Below are positions 39,152 to 57,983 of a stretch of 64,000 bases of DNA, in pieces (the stretch's first letter is position 1; each line of letters opens with the position of its first letter). The DNA comes from a virus, in the IMG/VR virus record IMGVR_UViG_3300013102_000002, positions 62,001-126,000 of that record; one strand, given 5' to 3'. The position numbers were made by a program, and so were the translations under genes. The notes beneath the pieces were generated by a model. The model had not been told where the DNA came from. It saw only the letters and a program-made list of their open reading frames with translations, and did no database searches.

Positions 39152-40483
39152 TTGAAAAAAGACAGAGATCAGCTTGAAACATTAATTGCGGAGACAATTG
39201 CAGAAGTTAAAGTTGATCGGAAAAAAGTGTTGAAAGTTAATAATTTCCTCTCTGAATCAGGAGTATCATTAGGAACATTTGATGAGATATCAAAGGGAGA
39301 TAAGCAATTATCAACATTAGAATCATCAATGTTATGTGTTTTATCCGATGCTCTGTATGAACTAACTGCTAACGGGAATCTCAAACCTGACCAATGGTTT
39401 ACCACTAAAGAAATAAGTTATGCAAAAAAGGAATTAATGAACAATACAGAAACCAATAGAATAATGTTGCCTATAGCTCTTGAAAATGTTGAGATGGTAA
39501 GTATAGACAATTATATCACTAAAATTAAGATGTCCGATTTAGTTCAATGGTTTCACTCGCAGTTAATCATTTATGATTTTGATACTCAAAGAAGTGCAAA
39601 GTTTAAAACTGGTAAGAATGGAGTTGTACCTGTACCAGATATTAATTTAAAAAGCGTTGTAGATATTGCAGATAATATGTTAAATGGTACATACCTAGAG
39701 GATATGATTACTCTAAATATTTACTCAGACGAAACTGAGGCAGTTGATTATAACTCTAAATCTCGGCTGTTGACGGTTAATGAACAAGCGGTAATATCTA
39801 TCCTTGATGGGTTTCATCGTCTACAGGGAGGTGTGAGGGCCTGTGCAACCAACCCCGAGTTAGAGCAGATGATGATTCTTTCAATTAGATCATATGATAC
39901 AGATACGGCCAAGAAGTATTTTGGACAAATCAATACCATAAACGTAGTGAAAAAAGAAAGATTGAAGGAACTGAAGTCTCAAAAATTCTCAGATTTAGTC
40001 GTTAAAGATCTTCAACAAAAAACTGATCTTAAGGGCAAGATTGCATCAGCATCAAGAATAAGCGAATTGGCTGGACAATTGACCACCTTTGACATACTTT
40101 CACATGCTATTGACAATGTTTATAAACCTAAAAGCAGACTTGATGCAATGGAGATATCAGAAAAACTCACGAAATTTTTTAATTGGTTGGCAGGTAGTTT
40201 TGTTGATGAGTTTATAACAAATCCTAACAATTATAGGGATGAGAATATTAATCATTCTCTTATATTTTTAGGATATGTCGTAATTGCTAAATACTTTGAA
40301 GACAACCAAATTCCATACAAGGACATAAAGAGTTTTATCGAAAATAAAATAGATTTTAAAGACAAGAAGTTAATTGAGCTTTTAAATAATAAGCGTGGAA
40401 TCAACAATGCAAAAGTAAGAAATGATGTAATTAAATATTTTGAGCGGCTGATAGGAATAGGAGTGGATCAAGATGTCCAATAA
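39152..40483 (+). CDS. DGQHR-domain (DndB-like) protein
   Basis: 443 residues; TTG start at 39152 after AAGGAG; a -10-like TATAAT lies at 39124. The signature is ILDGFHRLQGG (about 217-226), a variant of DGQHR, followed by YFGQINTINVVKKERLKEL, as in DndB and related ParB/Srx-fold proteins. DndB regulates phosphorothioate modification, but no dnd genes are nearby. The stop overlaps the MrpR-like gene by 11 nt, so both are made together. In SPbeta the gene next to mrpR (yopQ) encodes a protein of similar length; whether the two are homologous needs a search. Confidence 0.75.
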   Translation: MKKDRDQLETLIAETIAEVKVDRKKVLKVNNFLSESGVSLGTFDEISKGDKQLSTLESSMLCVLSDALYELTANGNLKPDQWFTTKEISYAKKELMNNTETNRIMLPIALENVEMVSIDNYITKIKMSDLVQWFHSQLIIYDFDTQRSAKFKTGKNGVVPVPDINLKSVVDIADNMLNGTYLEDMITLNIYSDETEAVDYNSKSRLLTVNEQAVISILDGFHRLQGGVRACATNPELEQMMILSIRSYDTDTAKKYFGQINTINVVKKERLKELKSQKFSDLVVKDLQQKTDLKGKIASASRISELAGQLTTFDILSHAIDNVYKPKSRLDAMEISEKLTKFFNWLAGSFVDEFITNPNNYRDENINHSLIFLGYVVIAKYFEDNQIPYKDIKSFIENKIDFKDKKLIELLNNKRGINNAKVRNDVIKYFERLIGIGVDQDVQ

Positions 40484-41468
40484 AATATATGAAGATGGAT
40501 TTTTTAATGAATCCCATAAAGAAATGTATCTTAAAGATCTAAGTGAAAAAACTTACGTGTCCTATGCAAGAGTCCTAAAAAGAGCACGATATGTAGAAGA
40601 ACAATTAGGTAAAGACCTATATAACTTTAATGTGTCTGAGATAGAACAACTACTTACATTTATGTCGCCTGGGTCTTATTCAGTAAGCGGTGGAAACATA
40701 AACGTAATTAGAACTTATATAAGATGGGCAATTCAACAAGACTTAAGAGTTGATAACATCAATCCGTTAGACTCCGTTATCAGTGATGAATTTATAAACA
40801 AGTTTATTGACACAACAAACAAGAAACTATTTACCGAAGAAGAAATTAATACAATCGTTGGTGGACTACAAAGCTTCCAGGATGCAGCAATAATACAATG
40901 TCTGTTTGAGGGAATAATGGGACATGAGTACTCTGAGATTTTAAACATACTCAAAGGCGATGTAGATAGGGATAGTACTAAACTAGAGGTAAGAAATTCT
41001 CCAGCATCAGGACCAATGGAAAGAAGAGTAGCCGAAGTGAGTCCTAAATTAATGAACTTACTGTACAGTGCAGCAAACGAGACAGAATACTTAAAGTTTA
41101 ATGGGATGAGTAATTCTAAAGCTCAGAGAATCGAATTAATCGAGAATGAGTATGTATTTAGATCGGTTAAACTCAGAGTGGTTAATTATGAAAGAGCAAG
41201 TAATCATTTAGTGTTAAGAAGAATAAAGAGTATTAGGGAATGGTATGGATATCCTCATCTAACTGCAACAGGAATAAAAAACTCAGGTATGCTTAAGATG
41301 GCTAGAGATCTTTATGTAGTAAATAAGACTTTAACCCGAGAAGATATAAATAAGATTTGTAAACGATTTGGAGCGAACGCAATTGCTACAACAAGGCTCA
41401 CAAAAGACTTTTTAAATGTAGATACAATCAGGTCGCTTTATCCAGAAGTAGATGAAGAACAAGCCTAA
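40473..41468 (+). CDS. Integrase-fold protein lacking catalytic residues (MrpR-like)
   Basis: 331 residues, close to the 325 of the SPbeta master repressor MrpR (YopR), a DNA-binding protein with tyrosine-recombinase fold and no recombinase activity. The N-terminal core-binding domain (about 15-100: DLYNFNVSEIEQLL... IRTYIRWAIQQ... NINPLDS) is followed by a catalytic-like fold where key residues are lost: the usual Arg of TGLRxSE is replaced in EGIMGHEYSE (about 146-155), and HxxR is replaced in the ATGIKNSGM segment (about 265). No nucleophilic Tyr in context. It is therefore likely a DNA-binding regulator. The coupling to the DGQHR gene and position before the Agr cassette support a lysogeny role. 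Confidence 0.78.
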   Translation: MSNKIYEDGFFNESHKEMYLKDLSEKTYVSYARVLKRARYVEEQLGKDLYNFNVSEIEQLLTFMSPGSYSVSGGNINVIRTYIRWAIQQDLRVDNINPLDSVISDEFINKFIDTTNKKLFTEEEINTIVGGLQSFQDAAIIQCLFEGIMGHEYSEILNILKGDVDRDSTKLEVRNSPASGPMERRVAEVSPKLMNLLYSAANETEYLKFNGMSNSKAQRIELIENEYVFRSVKLRVVNYERASNHLVLRRIKSIREWYGYPHLTATGIKNSGMLKMARDLYVVNKTLTREDINKICKRFGANAIATTRLTKDFLNVDTIRSLYPEVDEEQA

Positions 41469-41498: not shown

Positions 41499-41527
41499 TT
41501 GACTTTGGCTTTTACGCATGATATATT
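41499..41527 (+). promoter_or_regulatory. Promoter of the Agr-like cassette
   Basis: -35 TTGACT (41499-41504), 17 nt, -10 TATATT (41522-41527), then a leader with AATACATATATT. It is strong and lacks the AT box. I see no obvious pair of LytTR-type direct repeats next to it. Confidence 0.82.
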
Positions 41528-41591
41528 GAGTACATAAGAAATACATATATTTATTAATTAAAACAACATCATAAAAGGAGACAAGAGAAAG

Positions 41592-42248
41592 ATGCTAGAT
41601 GCGATTATTTATGTAGGGTTTGCAGCAATTGAAGTTTACTCAATTATGTTTTTGATAATGTCAATTGCAAGGATGAATATTTTTGAATACATAAAGGAGT
41701 CTACGGTAGGAGTAGTGATTGTTTCGATCTGCACTTACTTATTTAAAGAATCTACGATATTGAGTCAGATATCTCCTATGATATGTCTCCTGCTGTTTTT
41801 ATCAATTTTAATCTTTATCTTTAGGGTTTCAACAATCCACTCAATAATCATTGTGTTGATCGGATACATAACATGCCTTATTATACAGGGAGTATTTATC
41901 TTTATTCCAACAATTTTTTCAAACTTAACCTTTGACGAAATAAAAGCCAACGATACTCTGAGATACTCCTTTCAAACAATTAATGCAATAATCATCTTCT
42001 CCCTGGGGCATTTTCTTAGAAAGAAAAACATTGGATTTTTATTTGTTCCTTATGCACCATCATTTAAGTTTAAAATCACAAAAACAAATTTGAATATCGT
42101 CTATCTATTGATACTTGCAGTACTCGCATTAAGTTCAATTCTAGAGATCGGTAAGATGTACATTGGAATCTTTATGCTAATCATTCTGTTTAATTTCGCG
42201 CTATTTATGGGACTGAGAAGAGAAAGAGGGTCGGTTAAGTTTGATTGA
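41592..42248 (+). CDS. AgrC-like membrane sensor domain without kinase
   Basis: 218 residues, ATG at 41592 after AAAGGAGA. Six to seven hydrophobic helices are visible: about 4-25, 36-52, 60-80, 82-110, 126-143, 170-188 and 192-208. The protein stops at a short basic cytosolic tail (GLRRERGSVKFD), where an AgrC histidine kinase would continue into its DHp and ATPase domains. Position at the head of an operon with AgrB and AgrD makes a peptide receptor the simplest reading, though a role in export or immunity is possible. The stop overlaps the agrB TTG start by 8 nt. Confidence 0.72.
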   Translation: MLDAIIYVGFAAIEVYSIMFLIMSIARMNIFEYIKESTVGVVIVSICTYLFKESTILSQISPMICLLLFLSILIFIFRVSTIHSIIIVLIGYITCLIIQGVFIFIPTIFSNLTFDEIKANDTLRYSFQTINAIIIFSLGHFLRKKNIGFLFVPYAPSFKFKITKTNLNIVYLLILAVLALSSILEIGKMYIGIFMLIILFNFALFMGLRRERGSVKFD

Positions 42249-42777
42249 TAAAATATGCGGATTGGCTACAAACTATTTTCATAAATATGATGGAATGCCC
42301 GAAAAAGACGTAATAGAATATTCGCTTAAATTCATCTTAACAAATATAATTACATTTCTATTAATTATAGCATTGGGACTGACAACTGGGAATATCATCA
42401 ATGTTCTTATTGCTGCATTATCTTTTTCTTTACTAAGAGTTTTCTCTGGGGGGATACACATCAAAAACCCCGATTTATGTATATTAACATCTTTGACTGT
42501 GGTTTATGCATTAGCAAATCTACCAAGTTATATTAGTCCTGAATATGTAAAAGTTTTTATGGTCATTACTTTTCTATTAGTAATTATATATGCTCCTTCA
42601 AAAATAGAAGATCACTCTATATTAAGAAAAGAAAAGCACTATATATTTAAAATAATTTCCATAATTATAGTGTTTGCTGGAATCATTGGCAAGAATGAAA
42701 TTATACAGTTTTCTTTTTTTGTGCAAAGTCTAACCCTCATCAATATTCGCATGAAGGGGGGTGAAATTAATGAATAA
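42241..42777 (+). CDS. agrB: AgrB-family peptide-processing membrane protease
   Basis: 178 residues; TTG start at 42241 with AGAGGG about 12 nt upstream and translational coupling to the previous gene. AgrB cuts the AgrD propeptide at the C-terminal side of the signal part and helps ring closure. The family signature is intact: R66, G70-G71, H73 and C80 (LRVFSGGIHIKNPDLC), with the catalytic His-Cys spacing of 7 as in S. aureus AgrB (H77, C84). Four to six membrane helices; the later APSKIEDHS motif also fits the family. The 3' end overlaps agrD by 8 nt. Confidence 0.93.
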   Translation: MIDKICGLATNYFHKYDGMPEKDVIEYSLKFILTNIITFLLIIALGLTTGNIINVLIAALSFSLLRVFSGGIHIKNPDLCILTSLTVVYALANLPSYISPEYVKVFMVITFLLVIIYAPSKIEDHSILRKEKHYIFKIISIIIVFAGIIGKNEIIQFSFFVQSLTLINIRMKGGEINE

Positions 42778-42904
42778 ATTCATGAAGAAAATTGCGCCAG
42801 TAATGGGCACACTGTTTTCAGCAGTTGCAGTTCTAAGCACAGCTTCGACCGCATCTGCTTTGTGGCTCGGTAGTAATCCGGCTCCAAAGAGTTTGAGAAA
42901 GTAA
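42770..42904 (+). CDS. agrD: AgrD-like cyclic autoinducer propeptide, serine type
   Basis: 44 residues; ATG at 42770 after a GGGGGGTG. It has the AgrD plan: basic amphipathic N-terminus (MNKFMKKIAPVMG), a hydrophobic small-residue stretch, then the signal part and the C-terminal recognition tail with P39-K40-S41-L42. Aligned with S. aureus AgrD, where the ring C-D-F-I-M precedes DEVEVPKEL, the ring here would be S29-A-L-W-L33 followed by GSNPAPKSL. There is no cysteine in the protein, so a lactone through Ser29 is predicted. The exact N-terminus of the mature peptide cannot be read from sequence. Confidence 0.88.
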   Translation: MNKFMKKIAPVMGTLFSAVAVLSTASTASALWLGSNPAPKSLRK

Positions 42905-42921
42905 AATTTAGGCGAATCGTC

Positions 42922-42946
42922 TCCTCCCATTTATATAGTGGGAGGA
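42922..42946 (+). promoter_or_regulatory. Perfect hairpin between agrD and the LytTR gene
   Basis: TCCTCCCA (42922-42929) and TGGGAGGA (42939-42946) form an 8-bp stem around TTTATATAG. There is no T-run, so it is not a classic terminator. Its right arm holds a GGGAGGA, so it may hide a ribosome binding site, or mark RNA processing that separates agrD from the regulator gene. Confidence 0.6.
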
Positions 42947-42973
42947 TATGCCGCCAAATTGGAGGCTATTATT

Positions 42974-43363
42974 TTGGGCGATAGAATAATGGTTATCAAA
43001 GTTGAAATAGATCTGAAAAAAAAGGAATACATAACCGGGGAAGCCCAATGGCTAGAAGTAGAAAAAATATTGAATACAAGAGTTGAAAGAATAAAAGGAC
43101 GAGACAAAATCATAATCAATACTACAGAAGGGTTGTTTTTTTATAATGTACTAGCAGACAACTTCACATCTTTAATGTCGGAATTAAATGGATTTGAAAT
43201 AGCTGATAGAGGTGTAATCGTTAATCTTGAGAATGAGGTTGCTCTTGACCTAGATAAAAGAGTTATTGTATTTGAAGACTATCCTAGTATCATAGCTCCA
43301 GTGGGAGGATCACGACTTCCTGATATTAAGAAGTTAATAAAAAAATGGGTACTAAAAAAGTAG
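42974..43363 (+). CDS. Stand-alone LytTR DNA-binding regulator
   Basis: 129 residues from TTG 42974, 8 nt after GGAGG (42961-42965); a GTG at 42938 and ATG at 42989 are alternatives. The sequence follows the LytTR beta-beta-beta plan of AgrA/ComE: a strand with VERIKGRDKIIINTTEG, then LMSELNGFEIADRGVIVNLENEVAL, DKRVIVFED, and a last segment RLPDIKKLIKKW, equivalent to RxHRSYIVNL and the PVSRxxxxxLKxxL tail. There is no N-terminal receiver domain with a phospho-acceptor Asp; only about 20 residues precede the domain. It is the likely output of the cassette. Confidence 0.78.
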   Translation: MGDRIMVIKVEIDLKKKEYITGEAQWLEVEKILNTRVERIKGRDKIIINTTEGLFFYNVLADNFTSLMSELNGFEIADRGVIVNLENEVALDLDKRVIVFEDYPSIIAPVGGSRLPDIKKLIKKWVLKK

Positions 43364-43370
43364 TACTCAT

Positions 43371-43439
43371 TAAAAAATAAATATATATAAGTTAAATCGT
43401 TAATCAACCATTGCAATAAAGAAATATTAAATGTATAAT
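43371..43439 (+). promoter_or_regulatory. Promoter upstream of the second LexA-like box
   Basis: AAAAAATAAATATATATAAG is followed about 20 nt later by -35 TTGCAA (43411-43416), 17 nt, -10 TATAAT (43434-43439). The LexA-like box lies at about +5 to +18. Confidence 0.7.
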
Positions 43440-43448
43440 TAATAAATA

Positions 43449-43462
43449 AGAACATTTGTTCC
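43449..43462. promoter_or_regulatory. LexA-like (SOS) box after the Agr cassette
   Basis: AGAACATTTGTTCC contains GAAC-N4-GTTC. It sits just downstream of the -10 at 43434-43439. Its inverted sequence (GGAACAAATGTTCT) is nearly the same as the box at 35822. Confidence 0.68.
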
Positions 43463-43520
43463 TGTTTTCATCATCCGACACGAACCGACAAATTATAACC
43501 TCCGAAGAAAAATATGGCAA

Positions 43521-43612: not shown

Positions 43613-43699
43613 ATGTCTATTTTTCAACTCAGATATGATAGTAGTAACAACGGGGAGCATTTCAAAAAAGAGGGGATACGCACATGCACTTATCAATGA
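43613..43699 (+). CDS. Possible 28-codon leader ORF
   Basis: ATG at 43613 with GGGAG 4 nt upstream; the frame ends at 43699 inside the start of the next gene. It could be a regulatory leader peptide. Confidence 0.35.
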   Translation: MSIFQLRYDSSNNGEHFKKEGIRTCTYQ

Positions 43700-44076
43700 T
43701 CAGAGAACTCTCGATGGCACTAAACGTTGATTCTAATGCTGCTGGTTTCTGGAATAACGTACGTTATCTATTTAAAACAGATGATGAGGTCAGGTCATTA
43801 CTGCATGAGTGTGCTGGGAAATCGAGAAGAGAAATAGATAAGTATATTTCAAAAGTAAGGAATGAAAAAATAAAAAAGTATCGTTTTCTGTCTTTAAATG
43901 ATTTTGTAAGTAGCTTCAATGTCGATAAGATTACTGCTCTCGAAAGGATGTTCCAAGAGCCAATTGATATTTCGAAACTATCCAAATTGACTACCAATGA
44001 CCCAACCCGCATATTCACTATACATAGCAACCTACCACTTGCGGTGTGGTTCATGAGTTTTGTAATCTATTTGTAG
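43684..44076 (+). CDS. Hypothetical protein downstream of a LexA-like box
   Basis: 130 residues; ATG at 43684 after GAGGGG. Helical and basic (SRREIDKYISKVRNEKIKKYRFLSLNDF), with a hydrophobic C-terminal stretch (LPLAVWFMSFVIYL, about 117-130). No family recognised. Two promoters, an SOS-like box and the 26-nt element lie upstream, so it is likely induced on DNA damage; an anti-repressor or inducer role is possible but only inferred from position. Confidence 0.68.
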   Translation: MHLSMIRELSMALNVDSNAAGFWNNVRYLFKTDDEVRSLLHECAGKSRREIDKYISKVRNEKIKKYRFLSLNDFVSSFNVDKITALERMFQEPIDISKLSKLTTNDPTRIFTIHSNLPLAVWFMSFVIYL

Positions 44077-44198: not shown

Positions 44199-44268
44199 AA
44201 AGAAGAAGAGAGAAACAAACAAAAGCAAATCTTAATGAAGTTAATAATTTTATCAAGAAATTTAATGT

Positions 44269-44342
44269 GGGTCTTTCGTCTAATTGGTTAAGGCTTCTAT
44301 CTCATAAATAGAATAATGCCCGTTCAAGTCGGGTGAGACCCA
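44269..44342 (+). tRNA. tRNA with CAU anticodon (Met elongator or Ile2)
   Basis: A full cloverleaf can be drawn over 74 nt: acceptor GGGTCTT/GAGACCC (one T-G), D arm GTCT/AGGC with GGTTA loop, anticodon arm TCTAT/ATAGA with loop CTCATAA (anticodon CAT), T arm GCCCG/CGGGT with loop TTCAAGT, discriminator A. CCA is not encoded. The anticodon stem lacks the GGG/CCC of initiators. The choice between elongator Met and lysidine-modified Ile2 cannot be made by eye. It lies in the leader of the SSB-like genes and would need processing from their transcript. Confidence 0.9.
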
Positions 44343-44470
44343 TAGAATTAAAATGCCATGCGAAAGCATGTTGAATATATAGTCTTACGTAAGTGAGGTT
44401 ATAGATATTCTAATACTGAAAGGTGGTGAACCGACAAACTCAGTTTTGTACGATACATATAGAAGTGGGT
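44343..44470 (+). other. Untranslated leader after the tRNA
   Basis: Contains a GAAA-capped hairpin CATGC/GCATG at 44355-44368 and a palindrome CTTACGTAAG near 44386. A short ATATAGTC string recalls the S segment of group I introns, but the rest of such an intron is not found. A similar untranslated stretch with GCATAGTC follows the next gene (45417-45543). Possibly structured RNA. Confidence 0.3.
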
Positions 44471-56804: not shown

Positions 56805-57983
56805 ATGTATAAATCAATCTACATTCCAGTAAAAGCAAATAAAGCAGATATAGTTTATCTTTTTCAAACCAGAAGATTATCTGCCGAAGTATGGAATTTA
56901 TGTGTCCAACTTGACAAATCAAATAGAAAAGAAACTGGAAAGTCTCTTACAATGTCAGAAATTCAAAAGTTAACAAAGAAATGTGTGGGGCTACATGCCA
57001 AAGGTATACATCATGTATCTCACAAATACCTATTTGCAAGAGACGCAATGTTTCGGTCTAGGGAGTCAGGTGTGGAAAGAGTCAGATTACCATATAAAAA
57101 TAAGCGATATTTCAATACTGGCTGGGACTACCAAAGTATAAAAATTGACTATGACAAGGGAATCATTTTTCTTGCTCGACAAAGTAGTATTGTTGACGGA
57201 AAAGTAAAAAGAAACCCCCGTGTAAAATGTTATGCAAGAACTATTCCAAAAAATATTGTAGAGATTGAATTAACGCACAAGGGGAAGTTGATGCTTTGTA
57301 TTAAGTACAAAGAAGAAGATTATCTCGAAGTTAAACGTGAGAATGAGGCATCTATTGATCTTGGTGAAATTCACGCAATAACATCTATGTGCAACAATAA
57401 GAACGGAGTTATAATTACTGGTCGAAAAATCCGAGAAATAAAACATCTAAGAAATAATAATTTATCCGTACTGCGTTCCAAAAGAAGCAAATGCACAAAG
57501 GGTAGTAGGCAGTATAGAAAATACTCTAGGGCAATTGCAAAATTACAGGTAAAAACAGATACCAGAGTAAATGACTGTGTTCACAAAGTTTCTAAACAAT
57601 ATCTTGATTTTTGTCTAACAAACAATATAGGCAAGGTTTATTATGGAGATCTTGATTCTGCCACACGCTCCACGAAGCAGAATAATAAAGGGAATAATCA
57701 CGTTAGACAGAAATTGAGTCAATGGAATTACGGTGAACTAATGCGGCAAGTAGAAAATAAACTAACTCGTCACGGAATCAAACTAGAAAAGGTCAAAGAA
57801 TATTATACCTCACAGAAGTGTCCACAATGTAAAACTCTGAATAAAGTTCATAACCGCGAATACAAATGTTCATGCGGATACAAGCAACACAGAGACATTG
57901 TAGGAGCAATAAATATACTTAATGACAATGGTGGATACTCAATAGTGAGATATGAAACAAAATTGTATCTGCAAATTGCTTAG
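56805..57983 (+). mobile_element. tnpB: TnpB RNA-guided nuclease of a solo IS605/IS1341-type element
   Basis: 392 residues; ATG at 56805 after AAGGGAGGTG. TnpB proteins cut DNA guided by the RNA from the element's right end. RuvC-like motifs: D in SIDLGEIHAIT (about 185), GDLDSATR where the second acidic residue is expected (about 284), and HRDIVGAINIL (about 362-372). The zinc finger CPQC...CSCG (about 343-358) is intact. No TnpA transposase is present, so it depends on transposition in trans, or is domesticated. Insertion seems to be between small genes and breaks none that I can see. Confidence 0.88.

Follow-up and report, generated by a model that had tools for sequence, protein, structure and literature searches.

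A candidate Agr-type peptide communication cassette beside the MrpR-like repressor of an SPβ-like Paenibacillaceae phage

Immediately downstream of an MrpR-like master repressor, a viral genome carries a four-gene cassette that we interpret, with a probability of roughly 60%, as an Agr-type system for peptide communication that is self-contained, belongs to SPβ-like Paenibacillaceae phages, and is wired into the MrpR lysogeny module. The 64,000-nt stretch of DNA analyzed here, referred to as the window, comes from a 174,510-base IMG/VR virus record. The cassette spans positions 41592 to 43363 and encodes a seven-transmembrane (7-TM) membrane protein, AgrB, AgrD, and a stand-alone LytTR protein, all on the plus strand (Table 1). 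A group of large Paenibacillus-type viruses has such a cassette, which would apparently allow an infected cell to sense the number of others in the same state. The principal peptide system known for phage lysogeny votes is arbitrium, and the cassette is indeed built of different parts, as had been claimed: AgrB, AgrD, a 7-TM protein, and LytTR versus AimR-AimP. The cassette is real and recurrent, its wiring is more unusual than first stated in a preliminary description of this DNA, and it is not exclusive to phages.

Protein comparison with SPβ reveals a shared synteny, in which the window genes at 39152, 40473, 45544, and 46659 correspond to YopQ, MrpR/YopR, YorF, and YorG, respectively, and the integrase at 1010 resembles YopP. 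The window MrpR also matches phrog_5830 (E=5e-83) and shares 26% identity with SPβ YopR; its Pfam and phrog matches bear out the earlier proposal that an MrpR-like regulator lies directly upstream of the cassette. Judged by these homologies, the genome belongs to an SPβ-like phage with MrpR/YopR and YopQ in its lysogeny module and YorF-YorG replication genes. A blastn search against GenBank phages returned zero matches. In SPβ, aimR-aimP is located about 4 kb upstream of yopR (mrpR) within the same module, whereas the agr cassette of the window immediately follows mrpR. AimR (PF22871) was detected in the B. subtilis positive control and in none of the 37 phage records tested. The suggestion that the cassette occupies the functional place of arbitrium thus holds for the module and for the lack of AimR, but the spot within the module is different. 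The window also encodes a PemK/MazF-like toxin (PF02452; 35823-36349), whose gene is preceded by a LexA-type box (GAACAAATGTTC) at a distance of about 110 nt, and a TnpB/OrfB-like (IS605) protein (56805-57983). A tRNA-Met (CAT) gene lies shortly past the cassette (44268-44343), and an Rfam scan of the cassette region found nothing but one tRNA.

Table 1. Features of the agr cassette and its surroundings in the window
Feature	Position	Strand	Basis
YopQ homologue (SPβ lysogeny operon)	39152..40483	+	29% identity to SPβ yopQ, E=6e-38; phrog_5732 E=4e-111
MrpR-like master repressor	40473..41468	+	PF22822 E=5.5e-24 and PF22823 E=2.4e-14, both above cut-off
Sigma-A-type promoter of the agr operon, TTGACT-17-TATATT, past the mrpR terminator	41499..41527	+	Sequence
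Phage-wide operator-like repeat TTTAATTAATAAATATAT in the agr 5' leader, candidate MrpR operator	41545..41562	-	Repeat count
7-TM membrane protein without kinase domain, presumed peptide receptor	41592..42248	+	218 aa; phrog_15604 "membrane protein" E=8e-8
AgrB peptidase	42241..42777	+	178 aa; PF04647 E=1.2e-24, 87.1 bits vs cut-off 23
AgrD precursor; predicted serine-lactone core SALWL, cut before G	42770..42904	+	ATG start; in-frame GTG at 42761
RNA hairpin between agrD and lytTR	42905..42961	+	-26.1 kcal/mol, z=-5.8
Stand-alone LytTR DNA-binding protein, receiver absent	42974..43363	+	AlphaFold model and PDB Foldseek; relatives match PF04397
Second operator-like repeat copy, 2 mismatches	43369..43386	+	Sequence
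Promoter TTGCAA-17-TATAAT, then LexA/SOS-type box GAACATTTGTTC at 43450-43461	43411..43461	+	Sequence
Direct repeat CGACA-N5-CGACA	43476..43490	+	Recurrence among MrpR loci
Conserved SOS-boxed small protein, ~130 aa, candidate MrpR antagonist	43684..44076	+	Homologues in relatives

The sequence confirms the description of four genes in one orientation, with 8-nt overlaps among the first three (membrane protein/AgrB and AgrB/AgrD). AgrB had been recognized by R66, GG, H73, and C80, and this assignment is upheld by a PF04647 match above the cut-off and by the invariance of catalytic R66, H73, and C80, as well as G71, across the phage relatives. On its Pfam match and its catalytic Arg, His, and Cys, we assign the window protein to the AgrB family. 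AgrD scores below the cut-off of its curated NCBIfam profile (TIGR04223; E=0.16, 12.2 bits against 19), but its length, its position as a short open reading frame beside agrB, and its P-x-x-L tail agree with the original assignment, and both the tail and the core Ser are kept in relatives. When AgrD cores are aligned by the conserved Pro of the tail, a Ser occupies the fifth position ahead of the predicted cut in every one of the 11 MrpR-linked AgrDs (SALWL, SILWL, SWTIL, SWTFL, and others). In the AgrDs of Brevibacillus phages, the fourth residue ahead of the cut is Lys in 10/10 cases, and the fifth is Ser or Cys in none. Among chromosomal AgrDs, 41 have Lys only, 29 have Ser/Cys only, two have both, and seven have neither, several of the last looking like one-residue register slips. 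In the loci L006-L008, L015-L028, and L082-L187, from Brevibacillus phages and Paenibacillaceae chromosomes, many Agr-type precursors thus bear an invariant Lys in place of Ser/Cys. By our own count, the ring has 16 atoms both in a lactone through Ser/Cys(-5) and in a lactam through the side chain of Lys(-4), and we predict that the Lys-bearing precursors could yield macrolactam autoinducers. A literature search conducted largely without subscription journals found nothing on point about AgrD lactams in nature or about Agr systems of Paenibacillus that lack a kinase.

The first gene was initially called receptor-like. It does encode a membrane protein and adjoins agrB in relatives as well, but its homology to AgrC is undetectable. 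Its AlphaFold model (pLDDT 85) consists of seven long helices, and the GHKL kinase domain that AgrC contributes to an Agr two-component system is absent from its 218 aa. The possibility of a truncated AgrC was rejected: a 46-sequence receptor profile had no hmmsearch match among Paenibacillaceae AgrC/FsrC-type kinases, and its hhalign comparison with kinases of this type was not significant. The protein had zero matches in the PDB by sequence, and Foldseek found no significant match to its model in the PDB or BFVD. Survey frames of 324-426 aa, considered as kinase-fused receptor members, turned out to be upstream extensions instead of kinases. We presume that the membrane protein is the peptide receptor. 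Davies (L006:2604-3263) and Emery (L007:2607-3272), two Brevibacillus phages, have an extra receptor paralogue that resembles the Abouo receptor and lacks an agrB of its own; these paralogues possibly serve in eavesdropping or immunity.

The lytTR gene preferentially starts at a TTG codon, with GGAGG at 42961-42965. Its description as LytTR agrees with the predicted fold and with the relatives, although the window protein itself has no Pfam match and thus does not reach PF04397. PF04397 is matched by 16 of the 18 aligned relatives, and the AlphaFold model (pLDDT 89) matches the LytTR domains of AgrA and ComE. A PDB Foldseek search with this model returned LytTR proteins as all of its top 13 matches (AgrA 4g4k, E=3.9e-4; 3bs1; ComE), and on this modeling evidence we assign a LytTR fold to the product. 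The protein comprises the LytTR domain only, in contrast to the receiver plus LytTR of AgrA.

A search of 15 of these phage records, which may be fragments, detected neither a PF14501 kinase nor a PF00072 receiver, so the usual two-component relay appears to be missing. The idea of an Agr-type signal therefore survives as a recurrent AgrB/AgrD cassette beside MrpR, but not as a normal two-component circuit. A host histidine kinase and response regulator could in principle complete ordinary Agr signaling, as phiCDHM1 was proposed to do with host AgrA (PMC3901668), and Paenibacillaceae genomes contain many PF14501 kinases. We regard such a host-completed circuit as very improbable, since a dedicated membrane protein and a LytTR protein accompany agrBD in almost every locus and the 15 records lack a detected kinase or receiver of their own.

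The agr operon has a good promoter, and its leader contains a copy of the repeat TTTAATRARTAAATATAT, of which the window has 19 copies that deviate by no more than one mismatch, where 0 would be expected. These copies lie mostly just upstream of promoter-like sequences (e.g., at 899, 6931, 8464, 13320, 28550, and 44144), and a similar element is found at the equivalent place in several relatives. MrpR of SPβ binds SPBRE, including at the aimR promoter (PMC10516654), and by analogy with SPBRE the repeat is likely the MrpR operator of this phage. Within the operon, the gap between agrD and lytTR contains hairpins in eight loci, which differ in sequence and have z values of -4.1 to -7.0 in 7/8; the hairpin may separate expression of the receptor and agrBD from that of lytTR.

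Past lytTR, an exact LexA-type box recurs at a distance of 67-106 nt in 9/13 loci. The number of LexA boxes in one window (2 versus 0.71 expected) is not significant, and the significance resides in the conserved position only. Homologues of the small SOS-boxed protein are encoded directly past the cassette in eight relatives and near mrpR in a locus without Agr (L041). Brady et al. described the way in which SOS removes the SPβ repressor as undetermined (PMC8612738), and we consider the SOS-boxed gene a candidate link between SOS and MrpR removal. The direct repeat CGACA-N5-CGACA is present in 13 Agr-MrpR loci, beside mrpR in SPβ, and in L045; outside the window it was located near 12335 in L102 and near 6968 in L045. 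It was found in 0/22 MrpR loci without a recognized peptide system, a few of which are short. MrpR modules that have this repeat carry an Agr, arbitrium, or HTH-TPR system. No LytTR-binding site was identified. As the first choice for such a site, CGACA-N5-CGACA was rejected, as it also occurs beside mrpR in SPβ, a phage without Agr, and has a 10-bp period versus the form of two 9-bp elements with a 12-bp spacer reported for LytTR regulators.

AgrB and the receptor are both hypervariable, so that scanning IMG/VR with either as a single sequence yielded zero loci and profiles were needed. MrpR and LytTR of two close relatives were recovered by single-sequence search. The AgrB profile identified 20 IMG/VR loci, all with the receptor and 19 with the LytTR gene (receptor-AgrB-AgrD-LytTR), and in eight of them the cassette is directly past MrpR. 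When MrpR is the starting point, the cassette adjoins it in 14 of the 26 MrpR-bearing IMG/VR contigs, a number that includes near-copies (e.g., L029/L030, L036/L037, and L040/L044/L046). Three further prophages in bacterial genomes (G091, G180, and G088) have an MrpR-adjacent cassette, two of them in the order agrB-receptor-LytTR. The preliminary description had asked whether this arrangement recurs in other phage genomes, and these surveys answer that it does. In one other locus (L045:5485-8475), an HTH-TPR (RRNPP-like) regulator and a secreted-type peptide of 54 aa come just after MrpR; the two look like a further peptide system in the slot downstream of mrpR.

Comparison of the window with its relative L002 shows where the cassette diverges. 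DNA identity is 96-98% in the flanks, including the agr promoter region up to the receptor start, and drops to about 60% through the receptor, AgrB, and AgrD. The corresponding protein identities are 95% for MrpR, 60% for the receptor, 51% for AgrB, and 82% for LytTR, and by analogy this pattern is that of agr specificity groups. The joint diversification of the membrane protein and AgrB also fits a bacteriocin or exclusion system, in which the AgrBD peptide would act against competing lysogens or cells, the membrane protein would provide immunity, and LytTR would regulate production. Streptococcal bacteriocins are controlled by LytTR-type regulators (PMC6193735), and the extra receptor paralogue in Davies and Emery is close to the receptor of another phage. 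However, the AgrD cores are shaped as Agr autoinducers, with a nucleophile and hydrophobic C-terminal ring residues, and each cassette has its own regulator, as signaling systems do; we thus consider a role in killing or exclusion quite improbable.

The cassette is not phage specific. The receptor profile matches 156 of the 250 Paenibacillaceae genomes, in frames mostly of 210-280 aa, and MrpR is present in 23/250. Among 86 distinct sampled receptors, agrB is present in 82 and a LytTR gene lies downstream in 73. Inspected flanks of these host-genome cassettes look chromosomal (e.g., sdhAB beside L057), and most cassettes of the broad family are located on Paenibacillaceae chromosomes and lack an MrpR link. 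This wide distribution on host-family chromosomes argues for host cargo, namely, a cassette acquired from these chromosomes that is expressed in lysogeny as a cargo operon and alters host behavior or eavesdrops on host cassettes while the phage decision is unaffected, and so does the separate cassette lineage beside the integrases of Brevibacillus phages. The preliminary description had set its own reading against a mainly chromosomal locus unrelated to phage regulators; the cassette is indeed common on chromosomes, but the MrpR-linked cassettes fall into separate clades. In a tree of receptor plus AgrB, ten MrpR-linked cassettes, including that of the window, form one clade (SH-aLRT 99), four MrpR-linked cassettes with swapped gene order fall in another (SH-aLRT 96), and ten Brevibacillus-phage cassettes in a third (SH-aLRT 96). 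The chromosomal abundance and the separate clades together suggest that the phage lineages are old and separate, with their source in a broader pool within the host family. Host cargo is unlikely in our assessment, as the MrpR-linked cassettes keep their position next to mrpR although AgrB diverges to about 30-50%, and the operon bears the phage-wide repeat and is flanked by mrpR on one side and by a conserved SOS-boxed phage gene on the other.

For the favored reading of a phage communication system, we infer receptor function, signal chemistry, LytTR targets, and the effect on lysogeny as follows. MrpR would repress the agr operon via the operator-like repeat, and the operon would consequently be switched on in infection or induction. 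AgrB would cut AgrD and form a serine lactone with the core S-A-L-W-L and a 16-membered ring, which would be exported and build up as more cells become infected or lysogenic. The peptide would act on the 7-TM protein, which may control LytTR directly because there is no kinase to relay the signal. In the streptococcal LytTR Regulatory Systems (LRS), a kinase-less membrane protein keeps a LytTR regulator inactive (PMC6193735), and the 7-TM protein would hold or release LytTR as in HdrRM and BrsRM. Once released, LytTR would change how its own operon and the mrpR/SOS control region are transcribed, and this change would shift lysis, lysogeny, or induction. The direction is not confidently predicted; by analogy with arbitrium, high peptide levels might favor lysogeny.

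We more tentatively propose, at clearly less than even odds, that the cassette represents a second, independently built viral peptide-communication family, in which AgrB makes cyclic peptides, a kinase-less 7-TM receptor directly gates LytTR, and arbitrium has been replaced in one SPβ-like branch. This family would lie within a large unrecognized class of Paenibacillaceae cassettes, many of whose precursors, with an invariant Lys one position nearer the cut, would give rise to natural macrolactam autoinducers. No report of the kinase-less cassette, or of a link between it and MrpR, came up in a literature search of incomplete coverage. AgrB of Brevibacillus phages has been named in passing (PMC4909266), phage-borne agr homologues receive a loose mention in a 2025 review (PMC11945551), and Agr is not mentioned in a 2026 review on communication among phages. 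The presence of a cassette of unrelated parts beside the same master repressor, across many divergent AimR-less phages, suggests that viral communication evolved convergently, and arbitrium and the agr cassette offer a natural test of which features matter. A kinase-less receptor and a stand-alone LytTR would constitute a simple pathway from membrane to DNA, for whose reconstruction four small genes could suffice, and the conserved SOS-boxed gene next to MrpR is relevant to how an SPβ-type repressor is removed in the SOS response.

The cassette shares features with several known systems and departs from each. As in the Agr systems of Staphylococcus, Clostridium, and Listeria, it has an AgrB peptidase with the Arg/His/Cys motif, an AgrD with the P-x-x-L tail, a LytTR output domain, and a hypervariable receptor and AgrB beside more conserved flanks. 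In place of the AgrC kinase and the AgrA receiver, however, it has a 7-TM protein, not detectably homologous to AgrC, and a stand-alone LytTR. The LRS (HdrRM and BrsRM) likewise combine a stand-alone LytTR gene and a kinase-less membrane protein in one operon, but they lack AgrB/AgrD ligand genes, and their membrane proteins are DUF3021/DUF2154, unlike the putatively LytTR-inhibiting one of the cassette. The Clostridioides phage phiCDHM1 is also a temperate phage with agrB and agrD; it encodes AgrB, AgrD, and an AgrC with a kinase domain, and lacks a response regulator (PMC3901668). That report describes no MrpR link, in contrast to the window cassette. The Brevibacillus phages Abouo, Davies, and Emery have the identical four-gene architecture (phrog_15604/PF04647/PF04397) near integrase and repressor genes, where its annotation goes no further than AgrB and membrane or hypothetical proteins. 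Their cassettes nevertheless form a separate clade, have an invariant Lys instead of Ser in AgrD, and occur in loci without MrpR. Arbitrium (AimR-AimP-AimX) shares with the cassette its location within the MrpR lysogeny module of SPβ-like phages, and the MrpR site of the aimR promoter has a counterpart in the phage-wide repeat of the agr promoter. The two differ in their side of mrpR, arbitrium being upstream in SPβ and the agr cassette downstream in phages where AimR was not found, and in the path of the signal: arbitrium uses an imported hexapeptide and a cytoplasmic TPR receptor, whereas the phage cassette would use an AgrB-processed, probably cyclic peptide and a membrane sensor.
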